In this document: positions 29,983 through 46,589 of the stretch, in pieces | Layout of the letters: every line of letters starts with the position of its first letter | Numbering within the stretch: the stretch's first letter is position 1 | From: Hondaea fermentalgiana | Taxonomy: Eukaryota > Sar > Bigyra > Thraustochytrida > Thraustochytriidae | Assembly (NCBI GenBank): GCA_014084085.1 | Contig: NPFB01000013.1 | Span: forward strand, 193,679-240,269 | Length of the DNA stretch: 46,591 nt | Reading direction: 5' to 3' | The notes under the pieces: generated by a model | The model's input: only the letters and a program-made list of their open reading frames with translations | Databases searched by the model: none | What the model was told of the DNA's origin: nothing | Program-made: the position numbers and the translations under genes

Positions 29983-30158
29983 ATGCTCGCAAAGCAAAAG
30001 GTAGAGTTCGGTGCCGCCGAGGACATGATCGACGTGAGCCAGCTGCACAGCGCGGGCCGTCAGCGCCAGCAGCAGGACCAAACAGAGCAAGGGAAAATGC
30101 AACACTTTCAGCTCGACATGGCGCGGCAGCAGCAGCAACATCAGCCACCGCCGCCGCC

Positions 30159-30213
<55 letters not shown>

Positions 30214-30559
30214 CTTTCTCTTCAGACCCGACAGCCTCAGCATCAAGCGTCACTTCACGACACGCAACAACTTCAACAACAGAATCAGCAGCATATTTCC
30301 CATGATCAGACCCAACATTCTCAGCAGCAGCAGCAGACGCAACAGCAAACAAACCCGCACTTGATCCACAATGCACTGCAATTGACAGGATCACAACAAC
30401 AACAACAACAGCAGCAGCAACAACAACAACAACAACAACAACTGCAGCAAATCCAGCAGCAACAACAACTGCAGCAACAGCAACAACTCCAACAGCAGCA
30501 GCAGCAACAACAACTCCAACAGCTGCAGCAGCAACAGCAAATGCAGCAGCAGCAAATGC

Positions 30560-30599
<40 letters not shown>

Positions 30600-33051
30600 G
30601 GCGCTCCATCACCCGCAAGGCATCAACATGGGAACCGAAGAATCACAAACGCGCCGCGTACCCCTGGGAAGAAGCGTTTCGTATCACCTCCCCAACCGGG
30701 AAATACCCGTGGTCAATGCTGCCACGCAGCCACAGCTACAGCATTCGTTCATCTCGCAAGTACCCAGCACTAACACAGATGATCCAAACGCATCCGTCGC
30801 AGCAGATACGCTTGCTGAGCTGGGCCGGACAACGCGGTCTGGCCGCGTGTCCAAGCCGCCACCTGGTCACCCTGACATGATGGACGTCAGCATGTCGAAC
30901 GGAGGCGACGAAGAACCGGCCGCCAAGCGAGTTGCAACGCAGTCCAGGCAGAGATCTTTGAAGAAACGCGTCCGTTCCGAGCCTCTGAAACCATCCCGCA
31001 CCAAGGCAGTACGTCCTCCGATCTCGCGTACGAGCCAGAATCATGGACAGCGGCCCGCCACGGCCTCGCCAGGGTCGTCAGCGCCGCCTGCCACAGGTTC
31101 TAATGGATCATCAGCTTCGGGCGCGACACCCTCGCAGCAAACGACATGGTCAGAGCCGCCCTCGCAGGCTTCCATGGACAAGGAGCTCGTCAAGTACCCC
31201 CGTGCTGTCCAATTGGCAGTGACAGATACGCTAAACGCGCTTGGTGGAAATCGGGCGCAGGCAGAGGTGATCCGAGCTGTGCTCTTGGCCGCAGAAAAGG
31301 TATATCATGCTTGTATCTCAACGCCTGGTGCTGCCGCTGCAGCTGCCGCCACCGCCGCAACGGCCTCGCAGAGTCAGTCTGGAATCTTCATGGCCACACC
31401 GCCCACGTCTGGTGCATCGCATATGCACCAGGGTCACCCATCACACGGGGGTCCTTTATCATCGACGTCGCAGCAACCACACCATCTCCATCGGCATTCG
31501 AGTCAGCATGCGGGCCAACAGCAGCAGCAACAGCAGCAGCAACAGCCGACGCATGACGGGCAGCCAACGTCAAACAATATTCTCGTCTCGCTACTTACTT
31601 CTCCAAAGAGCGCGCCGCACTCTTTGCAAGGCGCAGCGAAACTCCCCTACGCAAACGATGCTACGGCTGCCAGTGCTGCTGCTCACGCAGTTCCACCTTC
31701 GAATTCTCCCTTCCCTATGCAAATGCACGGTAATAGCTTGGCCAATCTTTCGTTGCCGAGTCCTGCAGGAGGCGCTGGTCCTCGTCGCGGGGGCACCGGG
31801 TACAATCTGCAATCTCACATGTCTGCATCCAGTGTCCCCAATAGTCGTCGGCCGCACGCTACCTTTTCCGGGATGCGCGCCGAGAGCGATTCCAAGGTCG
31901 TGTCTGGCGATAGTAACCACGGCAGCACTGCCGCAGCCATGAGTCGTTTGCAAAGCACTTGGTCTGCACCTGGGAGCTCCAATACAGCGGCCATGCAAAA
32001 CGTTTTGCGGAACGCATCGGATGGCTTCAAGACATCGCCACGAAATTTTCCCGCCTCGTCTGGGTTTCTCTCGCTGCAGCATAACGTTCTCAACCACGGA
32101 AGCGGAGCTGAGCCGCCGCAGCAACAGAAACAGCAACAGGGCCAAGTGCAGCAACGCTCCCCCTCGGGAACTTCGTTGACGAGCGCCTCGTCGGCTCCCG
32201 TCGGCACCTCACTGGAACCGGCAGTCGGCGAGCAACTTCCTCCATCTCTCGATGGTAGTTCCACCTCGAGTGGCGGCACTTTCGGTAATGGCAACGGAGC
32301 TGCAAGTGCCGCAAATGTGCCGCAGGACATTGCCTCCGAGGCGGATCGTATCAAGGCGTCCTCAAAGCACCGCGCAGGCGCCAAGTGGACAAACGAGCAA
32401 GATGAGGCCCTCCGACGCTCCGTGGAGCAACATAATGGAACAGGTTGGAAAAACATTGCAAAGTTTGTTCCTGGCCGCGACCACGTGCAGTGTTTGCAGC
32501 GCTGGAAAAAGGTTCTTCGACCTGGGCTGGTCAAGGGGCCGTGGACACCAGAGGAAGACAGTCATCTCTTGGAACTCATCAAGGAAGATCCGACGATGCA
32601 TTGGGGCAATATTGCTGCAAAAATCAAAGGTCGAACGGCCAAACAATGCCGTGAACGCTGGGGCCTCAACCTCGACCCGAACATTAACCACTCCAAATTT
32701 ACACCCGAGGAAGACGATCTTCTCATGCGCCTGCATGAGCAAATGGGAAGCAAGTGGGCCGAGATTAAATGCCAGTTTGAGCGTCGTACTGAGAACGCTG
32801 TGAAGACTCGATTCAAGTCGCTCATGCGCGCACGTGCGCGGCAATGGTCACCGGATCAGGATGCAAAGCTTCGTCAGCTCGCCACGCAGTACAATCAGGA
32901 TTGGACGGCTATTGGCAACGCGTTGCAGCGATCTAAACTCATTGTCCGAAGCCGATTCAAGTACCTCAAGTCACTTCCTCCTTCGGCGACACCGGCCATT
33001 GTCACACCGCCGATGAATACGAAAAAGCGCGCAACTTCGGCGCCTTCGTAA
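29983..33051 (+). CDS. Four-repeat Myb/SANT DNA-binding protein with long polyglutamine tracts
   Basis: A protein of 1022 residues or more, probably a nuclear transcription factor. Residues about 45-210 are dominated by Gln runs coded by mixed CAG and CAA (30158-30209, 30396-30600). A Ser/Pro/Ala-rich middle follows. At the C-terminus (about 795-1000) are four Myb repeats. R1 is KWTNEQDEAL...GWKNIA...QCLQRW; R2 is GPWTPEEDSHL...HWGNIA...QCRERW. In R3 (KFTPEEDDLL...KWAEI...VKTRF) the first and third Trp are Phe, and R4 (QWSPDQDAKL...DWTAIG...VRSRF) ends in Phe. R1-R3 resemble animal/plant 3R-Myb; a fourth repeat recalls SNAPC4, an alternative identity. The ATG at 29983 is the first after the gap, so the true start may lie in it. 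Confidence 0.87.
30158..30600 (+). repeat. CAG/CAA polyglutamine-coding repeats
   Basis: Three main glutamine-coding blocks inside the Myb gene: mainly CAG at 30158-30209, and mixed CAA/CAG at about 30396-30441 and 30556-30600, with shorter Gln/Leu-Gln runs between. Confidence 0.93.
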
Positions 33052-33447: not shown

Positions 33448-34977
33448 TTACGGATTGGTATCGATGCCAAGCGCTGCCTCAAAGTTATCCGTAATGGCAT
33501 CACGACGCTCAATCGAGACCTCGAGAGGCAGCGCCTCGACAAAGGCCTCACGCACTTCAGCGACAATGAATTCTCTCTCGACAGCATCGTCTCCACAGAA
33601 TGCCTCTAGAAACTGGTCAAGAGCCTCGACAAGAGGCTCGATCGAGACGCCAGAAAGCTCGTCGTGAGCCATGGCTTGACCCAGTGTGTCAAAGCAGACC
33701 TTGCGTAGCGAAGCCGACTCGTACGAGTAGTTAAGTGAAAGCCAGTCCCACACATTCGAGCGATCGAGCAGACCGTGAGAGACGAGGCAGTCGGCGATCC
33801 ACTGGGCAAGTCCTGGAATCAGGTAGGCAGTTGCGAGGTCAAGGAGGGCTAAAAGCTCCTCGCGCGCCTTTTGGTCGTCGGCCCAGGAATCTAAAAGTAC
33901 CTCATCACAACCCGGGCCGCCTGTGTACAGAAACATGAGCGCGCAGTGCAGGATGTTCGCTCCGTATGTGTGAATGGTCTTGGTATCGCGAAAGTTCTGC
34001 ACTGTGCTATCTTTGAGCAGATTGCCCAAATACGAGCTGCGGGCTGCGACAATGGCTCCGTGGACTGGAAACTGTTTTCCTTGGCAGCGCAGCGTGTGAT
34101 CTGCCAGAAAGGAATGGAGGACAAAACCTCGGCCGAGATCCTCGGGCAGCTTTCGTCCAGCAGGGTACATTTTGAAAATGACCTTTCCGCTGGTCGACGT
34201 ATGTGAGCGCTGCCTATGTGCTTCCGTTTGGGGAACAGAGCGCAGGAGCAGCCGTTCGACATCAATGGCAAGTAAAAGTTTGCGAAGGCGAAGATGCTTG
34301 CATAATTCCGTCAGCGCGTTGGCATCCTCGGCGGGGCACTCGAGGACATCAGTGTAAATGTAATGGCGAAGTGCCTCGAAAGCCGGCGCTGTTGTTGGCT
34401 TCTCTAGACGCACGCGCGCCGACCCGGCCCAGGGTCCACCGGGGCGAAGCCAGCGAGCCAGCCGTGGGACGCGCGCAGCGAGCATGAATCGGTGACACGG
34501 AAAGGACTCGTCGCCCACTTCGATTGTGATGTCGGCAGATGACAGGTCCTTTTCAAGCTTGGCAATATCCGTGCCCAGCGGTGACAGCACGACGGTCCTA
34601 CGCTGTGAATATTGTCGTAAAAGATTCCGGATGCTGTCATTGAGGGCACCGTACAGACATCTGTCGCCGTCGTAGCTATCCTCTGCGCAGTTTGCGCCGC
34701 GCTCAAGCAGGAACTCGCACACCTCGTAGTGGCCGGCCATGCACGCATAATAAAGCGGCGTGGCATCGAAGAAGCGCAGGTTGACGCTCTCGGGGTTCTT
34801 TTCTACGATGGAGACGACGCGCGGATAGAGACCTGCTTTGCAGGCCACGAATATATCGTCGGTCGTTTCCATCCACACCTGCTCGCGTTGGCGCCTCTCG
34901 AGGTACTGCTGTTGCACCCGTTCGTGTTCGCGCCAGTCGTCCTCCTCGGAGTCATCGGCAAAGTTGTAGCCCTCCAT
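33448..34977 (-). CDS. Ankyrin repeat and double BTB/POZ protein (ABTB1/BPOZ-like)
   Basis: A 509-residue protein. After an acidic start (about 1-35) come two ankyrin-like repeats (about 39-120; DATPLYYACMAGHYEVCEFL is textbook). Then a first BTB domain (about 147-245; SADITIEVGDESFPCHRFML) and a second (about 295-400; GKQFPVHGAIVAARSSYLGN and FLYTGG). A helical C-terminal segment follows. This order, ankyrin-BTB-BTB, matches ABTB1/BPOZ, whose members act as cullin-3 adaptors or translation-factor partners. Adaptor function here is inferred. The start ATG at 34977 gives MEGYNFADD. It is single-exon and of the expected length for the family. Confidence 0.92.
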   Translation of the reverse strand: MEGYNFADDSEEDDWREHERVQQQYLERRQREQVWMETTDDIFVACKAGLYPRVVSIVEKNPESVNLRFFDATPLYYACMAGHYEVCEFLLERGANCAEDSYDGDRCLYGALNDSIRNLLRQYSQRRTVVLSPLGTDIAKLEKDLSSADITIEVGDESFPCHRFMLAARVPRLARWLRPGGPWAGSARVRLEKPTTAPAFEALRHYIYTDVLECPAEDANALTELCKHLRLRKLLLAIDVERLLLRSVPQTEAHRQRSHTSTSGKVIFKMYPAGRKLPEDLGRGFVLHSFLADHTLRCQGKQFPVHGAIVAARSSYLGNLLKDSTVQNFRDTKTIHTYGANILHCALMFLYTGGPGCDEVLLDSWADDQKAREELLALLDLATAYLIPGLAQWIADCLVSHGLLDRSNVWDWLSLNYSYESASLRKVCFDTLGQAMAHDELSGVSIEPLVEALDQFLEAFCGDDAVEREFIVAEVREAFVEALPLEVSIERRDAITDNFEAALGIDTNP

Positions 34978-37186: not shown

Positions 37187-38140
37187 TTATTTTACATTCA
37201 GTTTCTTGCCTTCTTGACAGTTTTCTAAAAGTCCGCCAGACGCAACCTTAGTTCGCTTCCTCTGTGATGGAAAAAGGAGCTTTCGAAACATGATAAAGCT
37301 ACAAATCGTGTTGATGAGCTCATCCGCCGATCCACCAAAAAGCTCCAGGTAGGGTACGGACTTCGTGCTGCCTTCGTTGTGTGAAGTTATCCCCGTGGTG
37401 ACCGATATAAGCGCCATGAGCGTCATCGTTGAAATGTTTGGGATCGAAGAAAGCACAAGGTTCTCTCGCACAAGCTTGCGGAATGAATTCGCCTGCTCCG
37501 AGCTTCGATCGCTGATGTCCCGATCCATTCTTGACGATTCCTGCAAAACAGGCCACACAAAGAGAGAAATTAAGGTCAGAGAGAGCATACCATCAGCGAT
37601 GGCCATCACAATCGGCAGGAGATTGTGTGGACGCACAATGCAAAACTCCTCGGCGTAAATGAGTTTTCCTGAAAAGGCAATCATCGGAAGAATAGCAATT
37701 CCTATAAATGAGTAGATCGAGTACCATATAAGGTTGAGCAATGCTGAATACCAGTCTGGCATTATGTTTGACACAGCCATTGCGCGTACAGTAAGCACCC
37801 TGTAGCAGAAAAAGTGCTGGCAAACGTAAATTGTGGCGCCAATCGATCCGACCACGGCGCAGCCTTGCCAGTTCCCATCGAGGCCGAGCAATGCAAGATT
37901 CCATGCGCACTGTGCAATGCTGGAAAGAATCTGGCCGGAAATTTCACGTAGTGCTTGTCTTGCCCCGGCTTTTGCTTTTCGCAGTCTATCCCAAACAATC
38001 ACCAGGCATATCGGAAAGACAACGGAGAGTATCACGCTCACCACAACGGCGACTCTGTGGAGCGTGTGCACGCTCGGTGGCGCGCGGAGCCCCGGAAAGA
38101 GGCGCGTCCCTGCCTCTGTTCTGTTTGCCACAAAATCCAT
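37187..38140 (-). CDS. Seven-transmembrane GPCR-like protein, paralogue A
   Basis: 317 residues, family not recognised. Hydrophobic segments fall at about 28-50, 67-87, 94-118, 131-156, 175-199, 226-249 and 267-289, giving seven helices. Basic residues crowd the loops that would be inside if the N-terminus is outside (RLRKAKAGARQ after TM1, QRKRTK after TM7). An N-glycosylation site (NRT, Asn6) lies in the short N-terminus. Cys94 at the top of TM3 and Cys167 in the TM4-TM5 loop are placed like the class-A GPCR disulfide, and FCYR (111-114) sits near the inner end of TM3. It is the most diverged of the four copies, aligning without gaps to B and D over 290 residues. Receptor function is inference. 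Confidence 0.8.
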   Translation of the reverse strand: MDFVANRTEAGTRLFPGLRAPPSVHTLHRVAVVVSVILSVVFPICLVIVWDRLRKAKAGARQALREISGQILSSIAQCAWNLALLGLDGNWQGCAVVGSIGATIYVCQHFFCYRVLTVRAMAVSNIMPDWYSALLNLIWYSIYSFIGIAILPMIAFSGKLIYAEEFCIVRPHNLLPIVMAIADGMLSLTLISLFVWPVLQESSRMDRDISDRSSEQANSFRKLVRENLVLSSIPNISTMTLMALISVTTGITSHNEGSTKSVPYLELFGGSADELINTICSFIMFRKLLFPSQRKRTKVASGGLLENCQEGKKLNVK

Positions 38141-38621
38141 TGTGCTTTGGGAATGTCTCGCAAAGCTAAGCCCAGTTCTGGGTCACAGAGCCGTTGAGCC
38201 TAAATTTATGGATGTTTTGTAGGCTAGGCCCATAGGACCACCGTCTGTCGCTCGGAGTTCGACATGACGAACTCTCGCCGACAGTAATCCGGGTGACTCT
38301 GTTGACATGCACAGTGACTTTACAAGGGACTCGTGCCGTCAGGGCACGTTGACAAAGGCTGAGTGAGTGACTTCGCGATGCTGAGGTGCATCGATTGCGT
38401 GGTGTAGTTTTATTATTGGTACTTGAGGGACATGCGACGCTGATCCGGGGCGGAGGCGGGCAGGATGGAAAGGGCGTTTGCTCTTGTGCAGGCGTAGAAT
38501 GTTGTCTGGGACTGGCAGAAATTAAGACAAGCGTCAAAAATCGCGTGGAACATGCCGAAAAGAAGAACGTCACCACGGCGAGCACGAGCAAACAACAAAT
38601 CATGATGTCCATCAACCAAAT
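38141..38621. other. Spacer between 7TM paralogues A and B
   Basis: 481 bases with no gene. It should carry the promoter of paralogue A and the terminator of B. The 17 bases before the A start resemble those before D (14 of 17). Confidence 0.6.
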
Positions 38622-39551
38622 TTAAGGCTTTATCGATCCCTCGGTGGTCCTCACTGACTTTCTGCTGTGGCTCTGTGAAGGGAGAAGAAGTTTCCGAAAC
38701 ATGATGAAGCTGCTGAATGAGTTGATAGTTTCGTCGCCCAATCCTCCTAAGAGGTCCATGTAAGGTATAAACTCTGTACTGCCCTCATTATAGGAGTCTG
38801 CTCGCGTGGTCACCGCGAGAAGAACCATAAGCATCATTGTTGAAATGATTGGGATCGCGGAGAGCACAAGGTTCTCTCGCGCGAGCTTGCGCAAAGCTCT
38901 TGCCTGTTCAGAGATCTGTTCTCGTCGGCCATTGCCGACTTCACCCGACTGACGTAGGACGGGCCAAATAAAAAGAAAAAGCAAAGTCGAGGAGAGAAGA
39001 CAGTCAGCAATCGCCCCCACGATTGGTAGCGTGTTGTGCAGACGCACAATGCAGAACTCTTCGGCATACATGAGTTTTCCCGAAAAGGCAACGATTGTTA
39101 GGATAGAAATTCCAATGAACGAGTAAATGAGGTACCACACGAGGTTGAGGAGAATCACATACCAGCCTGGCATAATATTTTTCACAGCCATAGCGCGCAC
39201 AGCGAGCACTCGATAGCAAAAGAAGTGCTGCAAAACGTACAGCGCTGCGCCAAAGGACCCGACAACGGCACACCCTTGCCAGTCTTCATCGAGACTAAGC
39301 AACGCCGAAGCCCATGCGCACGTGGCGAGACTCAATAGAACCTGGCCCAAAATCTCACGCAGTGATCTACTTGCTGCGGCCTTTGCTTGTCGCACCGCCC
39401 GCCATACAACTGCAAGATATCCTGTAAATATAACGGTCAAGACTACGCTCAGCGTGATGGCGAGTCTGCGAAGCGCGCGCACGTTCGATGGGGCGCTCGA
39501 GCTTGAAAAGAGGTAAGTCCCCGCCTCCGTTCGATTCGCCACAAAATCCAT
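38622..39551 (-). CDS. Seven-transmembrane GPCR-like protein, paralogue B
   Basis: 309 residues, same architecture and numbering as paralogue A: N-terminal MDFVANRTEAG with the Asn6 glycosylation site, seven hydrophobic segments, WQGCAVVGSFG (91-101), HFFCYRVLAVRAM, AEEFCIVR and RKLARENLVLSAIP before TM6. It is much closer to D than to A; long stretches such as LRKLARENLVLSAIP are identical in B and D. The third inner loop (about 200-225) is charged and Gln/Arg-rich. The start at 39551 is the first ATG and aligns with A and D. Function is unknown; receptor-like topology. Confidence 0.82.
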   Translation of the reverse strand: MDFVANRTEAGTYLFSSSSAPSNVRALRRLAITLSVVLTVIFTGYLAVVWRAVRQAKAAASRSLREILGQVLLSLATCAWASALLSLDEDWQGCAVVGSFGAALYVLQHFFCYRVLAVRAMAVKNIMPGWYVILLNLVWYLIYSFIGISILTIVAFSGKLMYAEEFCIVRLHNTLPIVGAIADCLLSSTLLFLFIWPVLRQSGEVGNGRREQISEQARALRKLARENLVLSAIPIISTMMLMVLLAVTTRADSYNEGSTEFIPYMDLLGGLGDETINSFSSFIMFRKLLLPSQSHSRKSVRTTEGSIKP

Positions 39552-40012
39552 CGCGAATCAGAAATGAGTGCAAAGTAATCATCCCGGCGCTTTTTTTTTG
39601 GCCGTTGAACTTTGCACTACACTGCACGGGGCCGGGGCAGGAGCGTAGCCGGGCAATCTGGCGGCCCCGGTCTGACAGTAGACCTAGGCAAAAGTTCAAT
39701 GGTAGGAAGTGATCCGAATTCCCCCCCTGTTGGTCGCTGTCGATGCCTTTGTATTATCACTGTGGTGCCGGTCATGACTGTTTGATTGATTCGCGATCCT
39801 GATGTCGAAAGTGTACAGTTCTCTACTTGATGATCAAAGGATGCATGCCAGGGAGGCCAGAGCGGGAGGGACGGAGAAAAAAAAAAAGAGAAAAGGACAC
39901 TGAAGCGCTTGCAAAGATTATTTGTTTGCAGGCGCAGCATTTTGGGGGAAGAAAATTTTTACAAGTATCTTGATGCACAATGTAAAGTCATGTTTTGAGG
40001 TGCTTTCAAAGA
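39552..40012. other. Spacer between 7TM paralogues B and C
   Basis: 461 bases with no gene. It includes a T run near 39590 and a G-rich patch near 39628. Confidence 0.6.
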
Positions 40013-40996
40013 TCAATTCGCTGAAGAAATCTCGCTGGGCTTTGCCAGTTTTCTGCCAGTGCTTAGTGGGGAAAGCGAGATGATGGGTTTAACTAATCTT
40101 CTACCATTTCGCTGTGCCGAGAAAAGAAGTTTCCGAAACATGACGAAGGTGCTGCACGTATTGACAAATTCGTCAGACAAGCCTCCCATCAATTCCATGT
40201 AGGGAATGAAGTCTGTGCTGCTCTCGCTGTATGATTCTGCCCGCGTAGTCCCCGCGAGGACTACCATAAGCATCATTGTGGTAATGATGGGGATCGAGGA
40301 GAGAAGAAGGTTCTCTCGAACGAGTTTGTGCAGAACTCTCGCCTCCTCGGAGTTCTGATCGTTCCTTCCATTCCTGACCTCGCTCGAATGGCGCAACACA
40401 GGCCACACAAAAAGAAAAAGTAGAGTGGAGGAAAGAATAGTATCGCCGATCACCGCCATAATAGGAAGCAATCTGTTTAGATGCACGATACAGAACTCCT
40501 CGACATACATGAGCTTGCCCGAAAAGTTTAAGAGCGCAAGAACAGAAAGTCCCCAAAACGAGTAAATGACGTACCACACGATATTCAGCAGTGTCGCATA
40601 CCATTCTGGCATGGCATTTTGCACGGATAAGGCGCGTATTGCGAGCACTCTGTAGCAAAAGAAGTGCTGCAAAACGTACAGAGTACCGCCAAAGGAACCA
40701 ACAATGGCGCAGCCTTGCCACCTTCCGTCGAGACTAAGCAGCGTCAAAGCGTACGCACATGTAACGAGACTCACTATGACCTGGCCTAGCAACTCGCGTA
40801 GTGTTCGCCTTGATTTTGCATTGGCTTTCGCTTGTCGCACCGCTCGCCACACAACTGCAAGACATACTGCAAATAAAACAGTTAAGACTGCGCTCAGCGT
40901 GATGGCGAGTCTGCGGAGCGCGAGCACGTTTGATGGCGCGTGCACGCCCGTGAAGAAGCGCGACCCCGCCTCTGATCGATCCGCCACGACAGACAT
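40013..40996 (-). CDS. Seven-transmembrane GPCR-like protein, paralogue C
   Basis: 327 residues from the ATG at 40996, which aligns MSVVADRSEAG with the other copies. An in-frame ATG at 41035 would add 13 residues but has no counterpart in the paralogues. A two-residue insertion in the first inner loop (KANAKSRRTLRE) shifts later positions, so the TM3-top Cys is 96 and the second-outer-loop Cys is 169. WQGC, HFFCYRVLAIRAL and EEFCIV are kept. The N-terminal glycosylation sequon is lost (ADRS). The C-terminal tail is longer and Ser-rich (SLSPLSTGRKLAKPSEISSAN), a possible phosphorylation region. Function is unknown; receptor-like topology. Confidence 0.81.
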   Translation of the reverse strand: MSVVADRSEAGSRFFTGVHAPSNVLALRRLAITLSAVLTVLFAVCLAVVWRAVRQAKANAKSRRTLRELLGQVIVSLVTCAYALTLLSLDGRWQGCAIVGSFGGTLYVLQHFFCYRVLAIRALSVQNAMPEWYATLLNIVWYVIYSFWGLSVLALLNFSGKLMYVEEFCIVHLNRLLPIMAVIGDTILSSTLLFLFVWPVLRHSSEVRNGRNDQNSEEARVLHKLVRENLLLSSIPIITTMMLMVVLAGTTRAESYSESSTDFIPYMELMGGLSDEFVNTCSTFVMFRKLLFSAQRNGRRLVKPIISLSPLSTGRKLAKPSEISSAN

Positions 40997-42183
40997 TCTG
41001 TAATTGGGGGAACAAAATAAATTGAAGTGTAACACAAAATTTGTCCGTTGAGGTGCTCACCAACCGTGACTTGAACTTGAACCGTGACTCGATTTGAAGA
41101 ACTGACTTCCTGTAACAAGGCTAGAAGTCTGTCAGTCGCCCGTAGTAAGTGGCTAAGATGCGTCGAAAGCACCGTACACATGTTTTGGTTGAGGAAATGT
41201 GACCTGCGTCACACGGACTCGGATCAGGCAAGGACGAATAACCTTCCGAGTCGTTCGCACTGTTCTTGTCTTTCCTCCAGCACGGGCCTTGCCGCGTAAC
41301 CACGAAGCTTTATAAGAAGCGCGATAGCTAATTATAGAGAAAGCGGCGCAGTGGTACACGGGCGGTCCGACTTTCAGCGTCGGAACTGTACGTCCCTTTT
41401 TTTGTGTTCGAGTCACGGTCAGAATGAAAAAAGTAGCCCCTTTGAGTTTACCAGTACTCGCTGGGCGACTCGTTGCGTAGGCCGGCCGATGGACGCTTGA
41501 TGTTACTTGGAGACCTAGAAAAGGCAAAGGTGCAATGAGGCAGCACTGTCCTCAAGAACAATTTTTATTTTGAACTCTCTAGAGAAAAGGAGAAGATCAC
41601 GTATGAGCGCTTTTGTAATTCTTATGATTTGCAAACTGGTCGGCAGATAGTCGCTGATGATGAGATCCGAATTTCTTCGTTTTGTCTTGTTTGTTTTTCT
41701 CGCGCAAACGAGCAAAAATGGGACGAGAAACGAGCAGCTATTTGTTTGTCCCGCCCTCATAAGATTGTACACGTTGCCGCGTTTTCTCATCCGTGCCAGA
41801 ATATCGTCATTGTGCCATTGCGTCGCACAGACCCAACCTCATCTTCCATACTACTTTACCCAACAGCATTCTTCAACTACCGCAGAAACATCGGAGACAA
41901 TTTCCCCTCACGTCTTCTTCTTCTTCTGCCTTGAATTGAGGTCGCACAAATTTGCGATTTTCCATTCTGCAAGAACGACAGCAAGCGTACTTTTCCTCTT
42001 TCCCAGCTCCTTGCAAAAGAGCTCTATATCCGACCAAAGCTCAAATTGCTGATTGGCTTCCTTCTTGTCGTGGAAGCGCAGAAAGCAGAAAGAGAAAGAG
42101 TCACAGAACACACTCTCAATTTACAAGAATTTACACAAAACCATAATATTCAGTCAGTTGTGTCTGTGACTCTGCTACCGAGA
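40997..42183. other. Spacer between 7TM paralogues C and D, 1.2 kb
   Basis: No gene is supported. A tRNA-like patch at about 41343-41425 fails on the D-stem and acceptor. I found no remnant of a fifth 7TM copy by eye. Confidence 0.55.
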
Positions 42184-43113
42184 TCAACGTTTCATTGGGC
42201 CTTTGATGGGTCTCACTATTTTCTTCCTGGGGTTTTGAGACGAAAAAAGAAGCTTGCGGAACATGACGAAACTGCCAATCGTATTGATAAACTCGTCGCC
42301 CAATCCTCCTATTAAGTCCATGTAAGGAATGAACTCTGTGCTGCCCTCGCTGTATGATCTTGCCTGCGTGGTTGCCGCGAGGAGAACCATGAGCATCATT
42401 GTGGAAACAATTGGGATCGCGGAGAGCACAAGGTTCTCTCGTGCGAGCTTGCGCAGCGTTCTCGCCTGATCGAAGGCGTTATCGCTCTGACCATGACTGA
42501 CTTCGCTCGACTGGCGTAAAACGGGCCACACAAAGAGAAAAAGCAGGCTCAAAGACAGAATCCCATCAGCGACCGCCATAAAAATGGGAGGCAGATAGTG
42601 TAGACGTACAATGCAAAACTCCTCCTCATACATGAGTTTGCCAGAAAAGGCGATAACTGCGAGGACAAACGCCCCCAAGCACGAGTGGACAGCGTACCAC
42701 ACGATATTGAGCAGAGTCACATACCAGTCTGGCATGATATCCCTCACAGCCATGGCGCGAACAGCGAGCACTCGATAGCAGAAAAAATGCTGCAAGACGT
42801 ACAGAGCGGCGCCAAACGACCCGACAATGGCGCAACCTTGCCAATTTCCATCGAGACTAAGCAACGCCGAAGCCCATGCGCATGTAGCGAGACTTAATAG
42901 AACCTGGCCAAATATCTCGCGCAGCGTTCGCCTTGCTTTGGCCTTTGCTCGCCGCACTGCTCGCAATACAAATGCAAGACATATTGCAAATAAGATAGTC
43001 AGGACCGTGCTCAGCGTGATGGCGAAGTTCCGGAGCGCGCGCACGGTTTGTGGCGCGCTCAAGCTCGAAAAGAGGCGCGTACCCGCCTCTGATCGATCCG
43101 CCACGAAGTCCAT
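42184..43113 (-). CDS. Seven-transmembrane GPCR-like protein, paralogue D
   Basis: 309 residues, aligning without gaps to paralogue B along its whole length. It has seven hydrophobic segments; Cys94 (WQGCAIVGSFG) and Cys167 (EEEFCIVR) as the putative outer disulfide; FCYR at the inner end of TM3; and a basic first inner loop (RAVRRAKAKARRTLRE) and basic tail (PRKKIVRPIKGPMKR), both matching N-out topology. The N-terminal sequon is changed to ADRS, as in C. It lies 1.2 kb beyond C and 1.1 kb before the TIR-ROCO gene, all on the minus strand. Each gene has its own flanks, so the four are probably separate transcription units. Function is unknown. Confidence 0.82.
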   Translation of the reverse strand: MDFVADRSEAGTRLFSSLSAPQTVRALRNFAITLSTVLTILFAICLAFVLRAVRRAKAKARRTLREIFGQVLLSLATCAWASALLSLDGNWQGCAIVGSFGAALYVLQHFFCYRVLAVRAMAVRDIMPDWYVTLLNIVWYAVHSCLGAFVLAVIAFSGKLMYEEEFCIVRLHYLPPIFMAVADGILSLSLLFLFVWPVLRQSSEVSHGQSDNAFDQARTLRKLARENLVLSAIPIVSTMMLMVLLAATTQARSYSEGSTEFIPYMDLIGGLGDEFINTIGSFVMFRKLLFSSQNPRKKIVRPIKGPMKR

Positions 43114-44237: not shown

Positions 44238-46589
44238 TCACATGGCATTGATCCGTGCGATGAGCTCCTCGTAAAAGGCCTCGGCCAAGTATAAGCGACG
44301 CTGAAATGGCATGGACTCCGTCTCGCGAAAGAGGTGCTTGGCAGCATCTGGAGCCGACTTCATGTAACTGGAAAAGGTGTCGAAGCCGACTCGATTGGGA
44401 TCGCTCTCGTGCACGAGCAAGATCGGTTTCTCCTCTTGTAGCGCCGTCTCGAGCTCCATGCGCACCGCGCCCTCGAAGACTGTCTTGGAGAGGAAAAGAA
44501 GGTAGCACTTTGACGCGCGAATCCCACGGCGCATGGCGTCCTCTGCCAAATTGCCCTGACTCTCCTGATCAAACCAGACCTTGAGACCTCGATTTTGCAA
44601 TTTTTCAGCGATGAGATTGCATGTGTCGCCGGCGTCCACTTGTCGGTGGCTCAAAAAGACATGGTATGTGAGACCTGCAGGCAAATCTCGAAGTGAAGCC
44701 TGCTCGATGGTCCCGGTGTCTTTCTCGTCTTCTTTCAGCGATCCGTCTCTGAAGAATGGCTCAAAATCTGCAACGTTGACAACTTTGGTGCCCACTGACT
44801 TGACAAATTCTATGCCAGATGATGCAAACCCACGCGCAGCTTCATCGTAAGAAACCAGCACGGATGCATTTTTCGGCGACTGAAGAAGGAGCTCCCATGG
44901 CAGATCTTGAAAAACTGCGTCACGGGCGTCTCGAAACATACTCACCAACGTCTTTAGCGTACTTGCTGGCTCTCTGGAGTCGCGCTCTACGCGTATCCAG
45001 ATCTTGTTCTGGGTCTGCTCAAGCGCAAAGACGGAGAGACCGAAGTGAACGATGGCCTCGTTTCCCGCCAGCTGAGGTGCACGCGAAATGGCCCCAAAGT
45101 TCCCACTGTACTGAGCGCAAAGCGAGAGCAGGCGCGCAAAGACGCCGTCCGGAAGAAAGAACTCGGAAAAGTCCAGAACGCATGTCAGACCGAGGTCCAT
45201 GTCTGCGATTTCGGCGTCAAGATCAGCGTCGGTCGAGTTCTTGAGCAGACTGCTCACCAGATAGAGCGGCTCGCCTTGGCGGCCTTTGGGGAGAGCCTTT
45301 ACGGGAAAATTCCAGTTTGACAGTAGCATGACGCCGCGCATGAACTCCACAAGATATTCAACTTCTTCATCGTCCCAGAGGAACCTCAGGAGACTGAGCG
45401 TGGCAATGCCGTGTTTGCGCAGCACCGCAAAGTCTACTTTGAGACCAGCCTTTTGAAGCTCGCGATTGTATCGCATCTGCCTGACATGGATCTTGTCCGC
45501 AATCACGCGCGAAAGCTTGTCCAGAAGCCATTGCGGATTCAGGATGACCTTGTCGTGCAAGGTGTCTGTTGCGCGGAGATGGACGAGCATGCCAAGCTCG
45601 TGGAAAAAGCTCAAGAGCTCATCGGTCTGATCACCGGCGTGGTACTTGGTGGCGAGTTCTTGCGCCGTATCAAAAGGGACATAATCGCAGTCAAGCTTCA
45701 GCAGGTCGTCCAACACCTTGAGCCAGCGCAGTGAAATCTTTCGCGAGACGGTCTCGAGCGACGACGCGCTTGCTTCGACAGCAGCGCGCAATTCCGAGGC
45801 ACGATTTGGCTCAGGGCTCATGTTGTCGATGGGGAAGAAGCTCAGGTTCTCCTCAGAGTTCGTGACAATGTTGGCATTCTCATCAACCGACAGATGTTCG
45901 ACGAGGATGTCCTCCACCTCGTTGACGTCAACTGACACCTGGTCATAGTGCGTGCCCACGAGAATGATGGGTCCAGTTGGTGCATGCAGCTTGACCGAGT
46001 TGAGCCAAAAGGAAAGATACGCCACGGCTTGGTCTTGCTTGATGAGGAGTTCCTGCATGTCGAAGACGACCATGAAGACGCCGCCCTCGCGCGTGAGGAA
46101 AATGTGGTGCAGCGCGTAAAAGACCTCCTGACCCGCATAGTCCCATATCGTAAAGAAGATCTTCTCGCCCGACTTCGTCTGGCCGGCCAATTCCTCGATC
46201 TCGGCGAATTCGAACCGCTGCGCCATCTCGGCCTCGGGCACCAGTTCCACTTGCTCCTCTGCGACGAAGGTCTGTGCCGCAGAAGAACGCCGGCGTCCAA
46301 AGACGACATTTGAAATGCCTTGAGAGACGCGCTTGGGCAGCGATTGCCTCTTCTTGCTTCTGGCTTGCTCCGCTTGCATGGCCATGCGCAGCGCCGCCAC
46401 GCGGTACGCCTGGCGTTCGAACCCGCTGTCGAAGTCCTTGCTCTATTTCCAGGACTCTGCATCGGTGCGCGTGAGCTCGACGCCCACCGTTGACTTGTGC
46501 GTTGGCTCGGGCTTCATGCCCAGCAGCGAGCGCACCACGGACGTCTTGCCGGCGGCGCCCTGGCCGACGACCATGAGCTTGCAGCGGCC
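44238..46589 (-). CDS. ROCO protein: Roc GTPase, COR and C-terminal TIR domain; 5' partial, with an in-frame TAG
   Basis: 783 visible codons. The Roc domain has its P-loop at VVGQGAAGKTSVVRSL at the window edge, STVGVEL (switch I), WDYAGQE (DxxG motif, 'DYAG') and VGTHYDQ (G4, THxD). The COR region follows (RWLKVLDDLLKLDCDYVPFD, GMLVHLRATDTLHDKVILNP). After a linker comes a TIR domain (about residue 638 to the end): YHVFLSHRQVDAGDTCNLIA, LKVWFDQESQGNLAEDAMRR, LLFLSKTVF and RMELETAL. The Glu in RMELETAL lies where TIR NADases carry their catalytic Glu. An in-frame TAG at 46443-46445 lies between switch I and the DxxG motif, with the same frame and clear coding sequence on both sides. The gene may be a nonsense allele, a sequencing error or read through; otherwise translation could restart at an ATG at about 46385 without the P-loop. 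Upstream domains lie outside the window. Confidence 0.85.
46443..46445 (-). other. In-frame TAG interrupting the Roc domain
   Basis: Codons before it read TDAESWK and after it SKDFDSGFERQAYR in one frame. No GT-AG intron can remove it. A single-base change from CAG (Gln) would explain it. The deaminase gene in this window ends with TAG, so codon reassignment is unlikely. Confidence 0.9.

Follow-up and report, generated by a model that had tools for sequence, protein, structure and literature searches.

Four tandem genes of the thraustochytrid Hondaea fermentalgiana encode members of a larger protein family that we consider likely to be G-protein-coupled receptors (GPCRs) that no model in the searched copy of Pfam describes. 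Thraustochytrids abound as decomposers in the sea and are used in industry to produce docosahexaenoic acid, and little is known of how they sense food and surfaces. The four genes, here called A to D, lie on the minus strand at positions 37187–43113 of the stretch of DNA that was analysed (the window, 46,591 nucleotides of contig NPFB01000013.1) and encode proteins of 309–327 residues, coordinates and sizes that an earlier note, made from the sequence alone, had given correctly. That note saw four paralogues; the family extends well beyond them, over seven contigs of the H. fermentalgiana assembly, where it occupies at least 19 places. By computation, its members have a predicted GPCR fold and a signature in the third transmembrane helix (TM3) and second extracellular loop (ECL2).

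AlphaFold2 models of D (predicted local distance difference test (pLDDT) 83.3, predicted template-modelling score (pTM) 0.80) and of a distant paralogue from the second clade described below (L014) each show seven helices and an ECL2 hairpin, both with pLDDT of 83–84 and pTM of 0.80 on only 17 and 19 sequences. All 50 Protein Data Bank (PDB) entries listed as structure matches are GPCRs for each of the two models, most of them of class A and with moderate template-modelling scores (TM-scores), and the helices of both predicted structures are arranged as in GPCRs. The predicted fold thus favours the first half of the proposal that these are surface receptors or transporters and goes against the second. 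The seven shared hydrophobic segments reported previously are supported by the models and by a plain hydropathy scan of A and D, which gave the seven expected peaks, but in B and C the scan missed TM7 and chose one spurious peak instead; seven helices in A–C rest on the alignment, AlphaFold2 having covered D and L014. A positive-inside pattern predicted in A and D would fit an N terminus outside and a C terminus inside the cell. Neither a confident match to a known non-receptor family nor a helix number other than seven, the two outcomes that the earlier note had named as speaking against it, was found.

The alignment carries the second line of evidence. Six residues (W91, C94, R119, G158, C167 and P197, in the numbering of D) are invariant in all 18 full-length members, that is, 17 intact genes and the database protein P0008, and C94 and R119 are exactly 25 residues apart in every one of them. 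This is also the distance between C3.25 and R3.50 in class A receptors. The pattern W-x-x-C-x24-R arises in 62 of 9,500 shuffles of 19 family proteins. Other marks of class A are missing: the residue preceding the TM3 Arg (3.49) is acidic in 2 of the 18 members, so D3.49 is not a feature of the family, and CWxP in TM6 and NPxxY in TM7 are absent by eye. N277, kept in 16 of 18 members, stands nine residues ahead of R286, a spacing that we take, by eye, to resemble that between the Asn of NPxxY and the basic residue of helix 8. P197 is located towards the inner end of TM5, and we claim no equivalence to P5.50.

These observations bear on whether the proteins are class A receptors proper that have diverged past sequence recognition, a reading that overlaps with our own, differs from it in class only and seems to us rather unlikely. 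The mostly class A structural matches, the Cys–Arg spacing and the Cys of the ECL2 hairpin are as in class A, and the genome's own two receptors over the 7tm_1 cut-off have the same spacing (C126 and R151), with no acidic residue before the Arg (by eye). By contrast, D3.49, NPxxY and CWxP are lacking in the present family, and profile comparison with the 7tm_1 pair, at the low power that a target profile of two sequences allows, showed no similarity: hhalign gave a probability of 0.3%, against 0.2% for an unrelated transporter control. One of the 17 members in family set A2 matched Pfam 7tm_1, at E 0.3 and below the cut-off, and a genome-wide 7tm_1 search had no family member among the matches listed. 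The 7tm_1 pair itself consists of two head-to-head genes, 44% identical to each other (L046, C186:259000–263200).

Comparison with other families also left the proteins unplaced, in keeping with the earlier description of an unrecognised family. For A–D, P0007 and P0008, Pfam gives no match over the cut-off, and L029 has none at E up to 1. Across the listed matches of the 17 A2 members, none did better than DUF6350 (E 0.0047), whose 16.7 bits fall short of its cut-off of 30.8, and the remaining families (25 of 27 families listed) lay at E 0.021 or worse. Searches against the sequences of solved structures gave three chance-level matches for alignment A3 (best E 0.52) and none for A2. The Dictyostelium cAMP-receptor family (Dicty_CAR) is likewise a protist seven-transmembrane (7TM) receptor family with one match in this genome, but it shows no profile similarity to ours: it is not among the listed families (25 of 27) of the 17 members, its single place in the genome is outside the family, and hhalign against the Dicty_CAR protein gave 0.1%, with one target sequence and low power.

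The expanded thraustochytrid GPCRs on record presumably belong to class C. An enrichment of class C GPCRs and Gα in thraustochytrids has been published (in a passage of PMC6050695), and class C resembles the present family in comprising expanded 7TM receptors of the same group of organisms. However, the 24 matches to 7tm_3 in this genome lie in open frames of 371–3431 residues and exceed the Pfam cut-off, whereas our proteins have 309–366 residues, a short N terminus and no match over the cut-off; the 7tm_3 search of the genome turned up none of them. A latrophilin-like receptor named in H. fermentalgiana (in part of PMC10445921) belongs to another, secretin-like GPCR family; the protein compared on this side was the genome's Dicty_CAR/7tm_2 protein (L047), which showed no similarity to the family described here. 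Oomycete GPCR-PIPK and other GPCR-bigrams carry a C-terminal catalytic domain (PMC5784254, PMC6033456; passages of PMC12716839). They too are stramenopile GPCRs, but the present proteins stop soon after TM7 (the tails of A–D run about 25–41 residues past the end of the TM7 helix of D, mapped on the alignment) and have no Pfam domain over the cut-off. Nematode serpentine chemoreceptors are short 7TM proteins encoded in same-strand tandem clusters; as a functional analogue they are joined to our family only by a sub-threshold Str match in gene B (E 1.2). Among the titles listed on thraustochytrid, labyrinthulomycete and stramenopile GPCRs, GPCR evolution, thraustochytrid zoospore chemotaxis and the Hondaea genome, taken without subscription papers and supplements, none describes the family, and the strings thraustochytr, labyrinthul and Hondaea do not occur in the available part of the main text of the eLife GPCR survey PMC12716839.

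Genome searches with D and a distant member as queries defined the extent of the family (contig C25, four places, A–D; C71, five; C214, four; C172 and C102, two each; C14 and C212, one each). The count is a lower bound, to which further queries added no place; one of the five C71 copies appeared as two rows. Seventeen of the 19 places are intact single-exon open reading frames (ORFs) of 309–366 residues. The other two are broken: the C14 copy contains an in-frame TAG, and its N-terminal part lies, by eye, in a different frame, and the fifth C71 copy is spread over two frames with a TGA. The family lies mostly in same-strand clusters, with one strand for all copies inside each. When about 5.8 billion proteins were searched with D (7,998 candidates scored), there were two matches, both from H. 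fermentalgiana and neither identical to D; each protein search scored only about 8,000 candidates, which limits its reach into the database. P0005 (FCC1311_064182, on a 117,783-base contig) is a partial H. fermentalgiana protein, 62–74% identical to A–D, and was not found in the assembly searched, where its best match is 74%, though it is recorded for the same species. P0008, 50% identical to a C214 copy, sits on a 2,361-base contig outside this assembly; because it comes from another dataset, the family, as judged by sequence, extends beyond the assembly. A search for proteins with alignment A3 as query came back empty and is uninformative, since it also missed P0007 (identical to A3 member L013) and P0008, both known from the second search.

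In a midpoint-rooted tree of the 17 intact members, P0005 and P0008, A–D and P0005 form a single clade (support 100/100), which adjoins the first C71 copy with support of 93/92, below the star threshold. The C214 and C172 members, those of C102 and P0008 form a second clade (100/99), and the C212 member has a very long branch. The suggestion of a lineage-specific expansion therefore fits the A–D/P0005 clade, but the family as a whole is older and wider, as its other places in the genome and P0008 indicate.

Within the array, all four genes are complete ORFs, each a single exon from the conserved N terminus. Through TM7 the alignment of A, B and D is gapless, as described before for three of the genes, and C differs by two additional residues. 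BLASTP identities are 72% for B–D, 67% for B–C, 66.6% for C–D, 62% for A–B, 61% for A–D and 54.5% for A–C, with all pairwise E values below 4e-119, far beyond chance. Because the ratio of non-synonymous to synonymous divergence (dN/dS) is 0.20–0.32 in all six pairs at a synonymous divergence of 0.70–1.34 (values above 1 being close to saturation), the copies are, as read from their coding sequences, old and kept by purifying selection. That B and D are the closest pair and A the most diverged gene, as first noted, is true of protein identity; at synonymous sites C–D is nearest (pS 0.45, against 0.49 for both B–C and B–D), and the tree accommodates either pairing, with C+D grouped in the best tree at a support of 44/39 and B+D not rejected (approximately unbiased (AU) test, p = 0.39). 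The further claim that simple neighbour duplication fails to explain the B/D likeness is not supported, as the synonymous distances and the tree leave no puzzle to explain. Low pS in codons 1–50 (B–C 0.27, B–D 0.35, C–D 0.22) might reflect gene conversion among B, C and D.

In public annotation, FCC1311_018162 (P0009, 130 residues), on the contig of the array, is a chimeric model: its residues 11–117 are identical to gene B (39341–39021), its first 11 residues match an out-of-frame stretch in gene C (40604–40572) and its last 13 match the A–B spacer (38380–38342). P0006, on C71, looks from its sequence like a similar fusion, with residues 232–498 identical to one copy and its start and middle matching the next copies (by eye). 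P0007, by contrast, renders a C214 copy correctly, with 336 residues.

The signalling context was surveyed in the same genome. There are 11 matches to Gα over the cut-off, on C26, C91, C70, C203, C114, C163 and C58, with C26 and C91 carrying three apiece; a single match has an in-frame TGA, and several show readable P-loop and DVGGQRNER motifs. RGS gave 32 matches over the cut-off (places, not genes), one Gγ, two 7tm_1 and 24 7tm_3 matches were likewise over it, and there was one Dicty_CAR match. Chemotaxis of thraustochytrid zoospores is a subject of published work. The oomycete Phytophthora sojae is said, in part of PMC7010300, to have a sole Gα.

We take a G-protein-coupled chemosensory receptor to be the likeliest function of the family; its topology, disulfide, G-protein coupling and chemosensory role are inferred, and the chemosensory role, taken by itself, is a tentative assignment that falls a little short of even. 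Each protein would lie in the surface membrane as seven helices, the short N terminus outside, and a disulfide would tie the ECL2 hairpin to the top of TM3. The conserved Arg would lie at the inner end of TM3, which is where class A receptors engage Gα. The helix bundle would receive a ligand from outside the cell, most likely a nutrient or some chemical cue; one or more Gα subunits of the organism would then be switched, and the signal would steer zoospores or settling cells.

The proteins may also have a GPCR fold yet act without G-protein coupling, be it as 7TM proteins of intracellular trafficking, as adaptors or through another signalling route; we regard this as improbable. It would account for the missing D3.49, NPxxY and CWxP motifs, for an invariant ECL2 Gly and TM5 Pro, neither of which is a known mark of class A in its position here, and for the 6 of 17 intact members without an N-terminal sequon. 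Yet the TM3 Arg is invariant in all 18 members, the genome has many Gα and RGS matches, and a sequon occurs within the first 25 residues of 11 of the 17 intact members (N-R-T in A; none in C or D); moreover, repeated tandem expansion is generally commoner for receptors than for trafficking proteins with housekeeping roles. Less probable still is that AlphaFold2 gave the shape of a GPCR to what is a seven-helix transporter, channel or microbial-rhodopsin-like protein: the few sequences behind the models, the moderate TM-scores and a weak MFS_1 match in one A2 member (E 0.021) could be read in this way, against listed structure matches that are GPCRs throughout. That the genes are decaying, functionless copies is the least credible alternative, as the two broken places stand against 17 intact single-exon ORFs and the low dN/dS of A–D.

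Table 1 Features of the array (window positions; codon positions in D computed as 43113 − 3 × (residue − 1))
Feature	Positions	Strand	Remarks
Gene A, 7TM GPCR-like receptor, 317 residues	37187..38140	-	intact ORF; most diverged of the four; 54.5–62% identity to B–D
Gene B, 7TM GPCR-like receptor, 309 residues	38622..39551	-	partly covered by public model FCC1311_018162
Gene C, 7TM GPCR-like receptor, 327 residues from conserved Met	40013..40996	-	two-residue insertion in intracellular loop 1
Gene D, 7TM GPCR-like receptor, 309 residues	42184..43113	-	AlphaFold2-modelled
Cys94 codon of D	42832..42834	-	TM3 start; C3.25-like; invariant
Arg119 codon of D	42757..42759	-	TM3 end; R3.50-like; invariant
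Cys167 codon of D	42613..42615	-	predicted ECL2 hairpin; invariant

The listed frame of gene C starts at a GTG and reaches 41035. The 450 bases 5′ of A–D have nothing in common better than E 0.027 (13–24 bases), and neither inverted repeats of at least 16 bases within 600 bases nor Rfam families or tRNAs were found in the array. A tRNA-like stretch seen by eye in the C–D spacer (41340–41520) was unsupported by ARAGORN and Rfam, and a DNA search found one genomic copy. A hypervariable outer half, considered as a sign of ligand diversification, was not supported either (p 0.10 for all 18 members, 0.30 for the four, 0.33 for clade 2); p 0.012 for the eight C25 and C71 members was discounted as one of four groups tried. 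Adjoining the array on the minus strand is an ORF of at least 720 residues (44238–46400), whose 5′ end may extend beyond the window, in which Pfam finds the GTPase domains Roc (E 7e-13) and COR-A (E 1e-12) and, at the C terminus, a TIR domain (E 1e-13); the Roco–TIR combination is uncommon. Further away lie a glutamine-rich protein with apparent Myb repeats (29983–33051, plus strand) and a protein with apparent ankyrin and BTB domains (33448–34977, minus strand), both judged by eye.

Taken together, our reading in its fullest form is that a separate labyrinthulomycete GPCR family, whose fold and TM3/ECL2 signature resemble those of class A while the usual motifs of activation are lacking, makes up a chemoreceptor repertoire of about 17–20 genes wired to many Gα subunits, a possibility to which we give slightly less than even weight. 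Such a repertoire would have been overlooked because no domain model matches it and at least one locus is annotated as a chimeric gene. The family adds a branch to the GPCRs and not a new kind of system, because Gα and class C GPCR enrichment in thraustochytrids is already published. As 7tm_1 finds two receptors over the cut-off in a genome with 17 intact, unmatched class-A-like genes, our results suggest that counts of protist GPCRs based on domain models can miss whole families. Clustered single-exon receptor genes in a sequenced strain are directly testable candidates.
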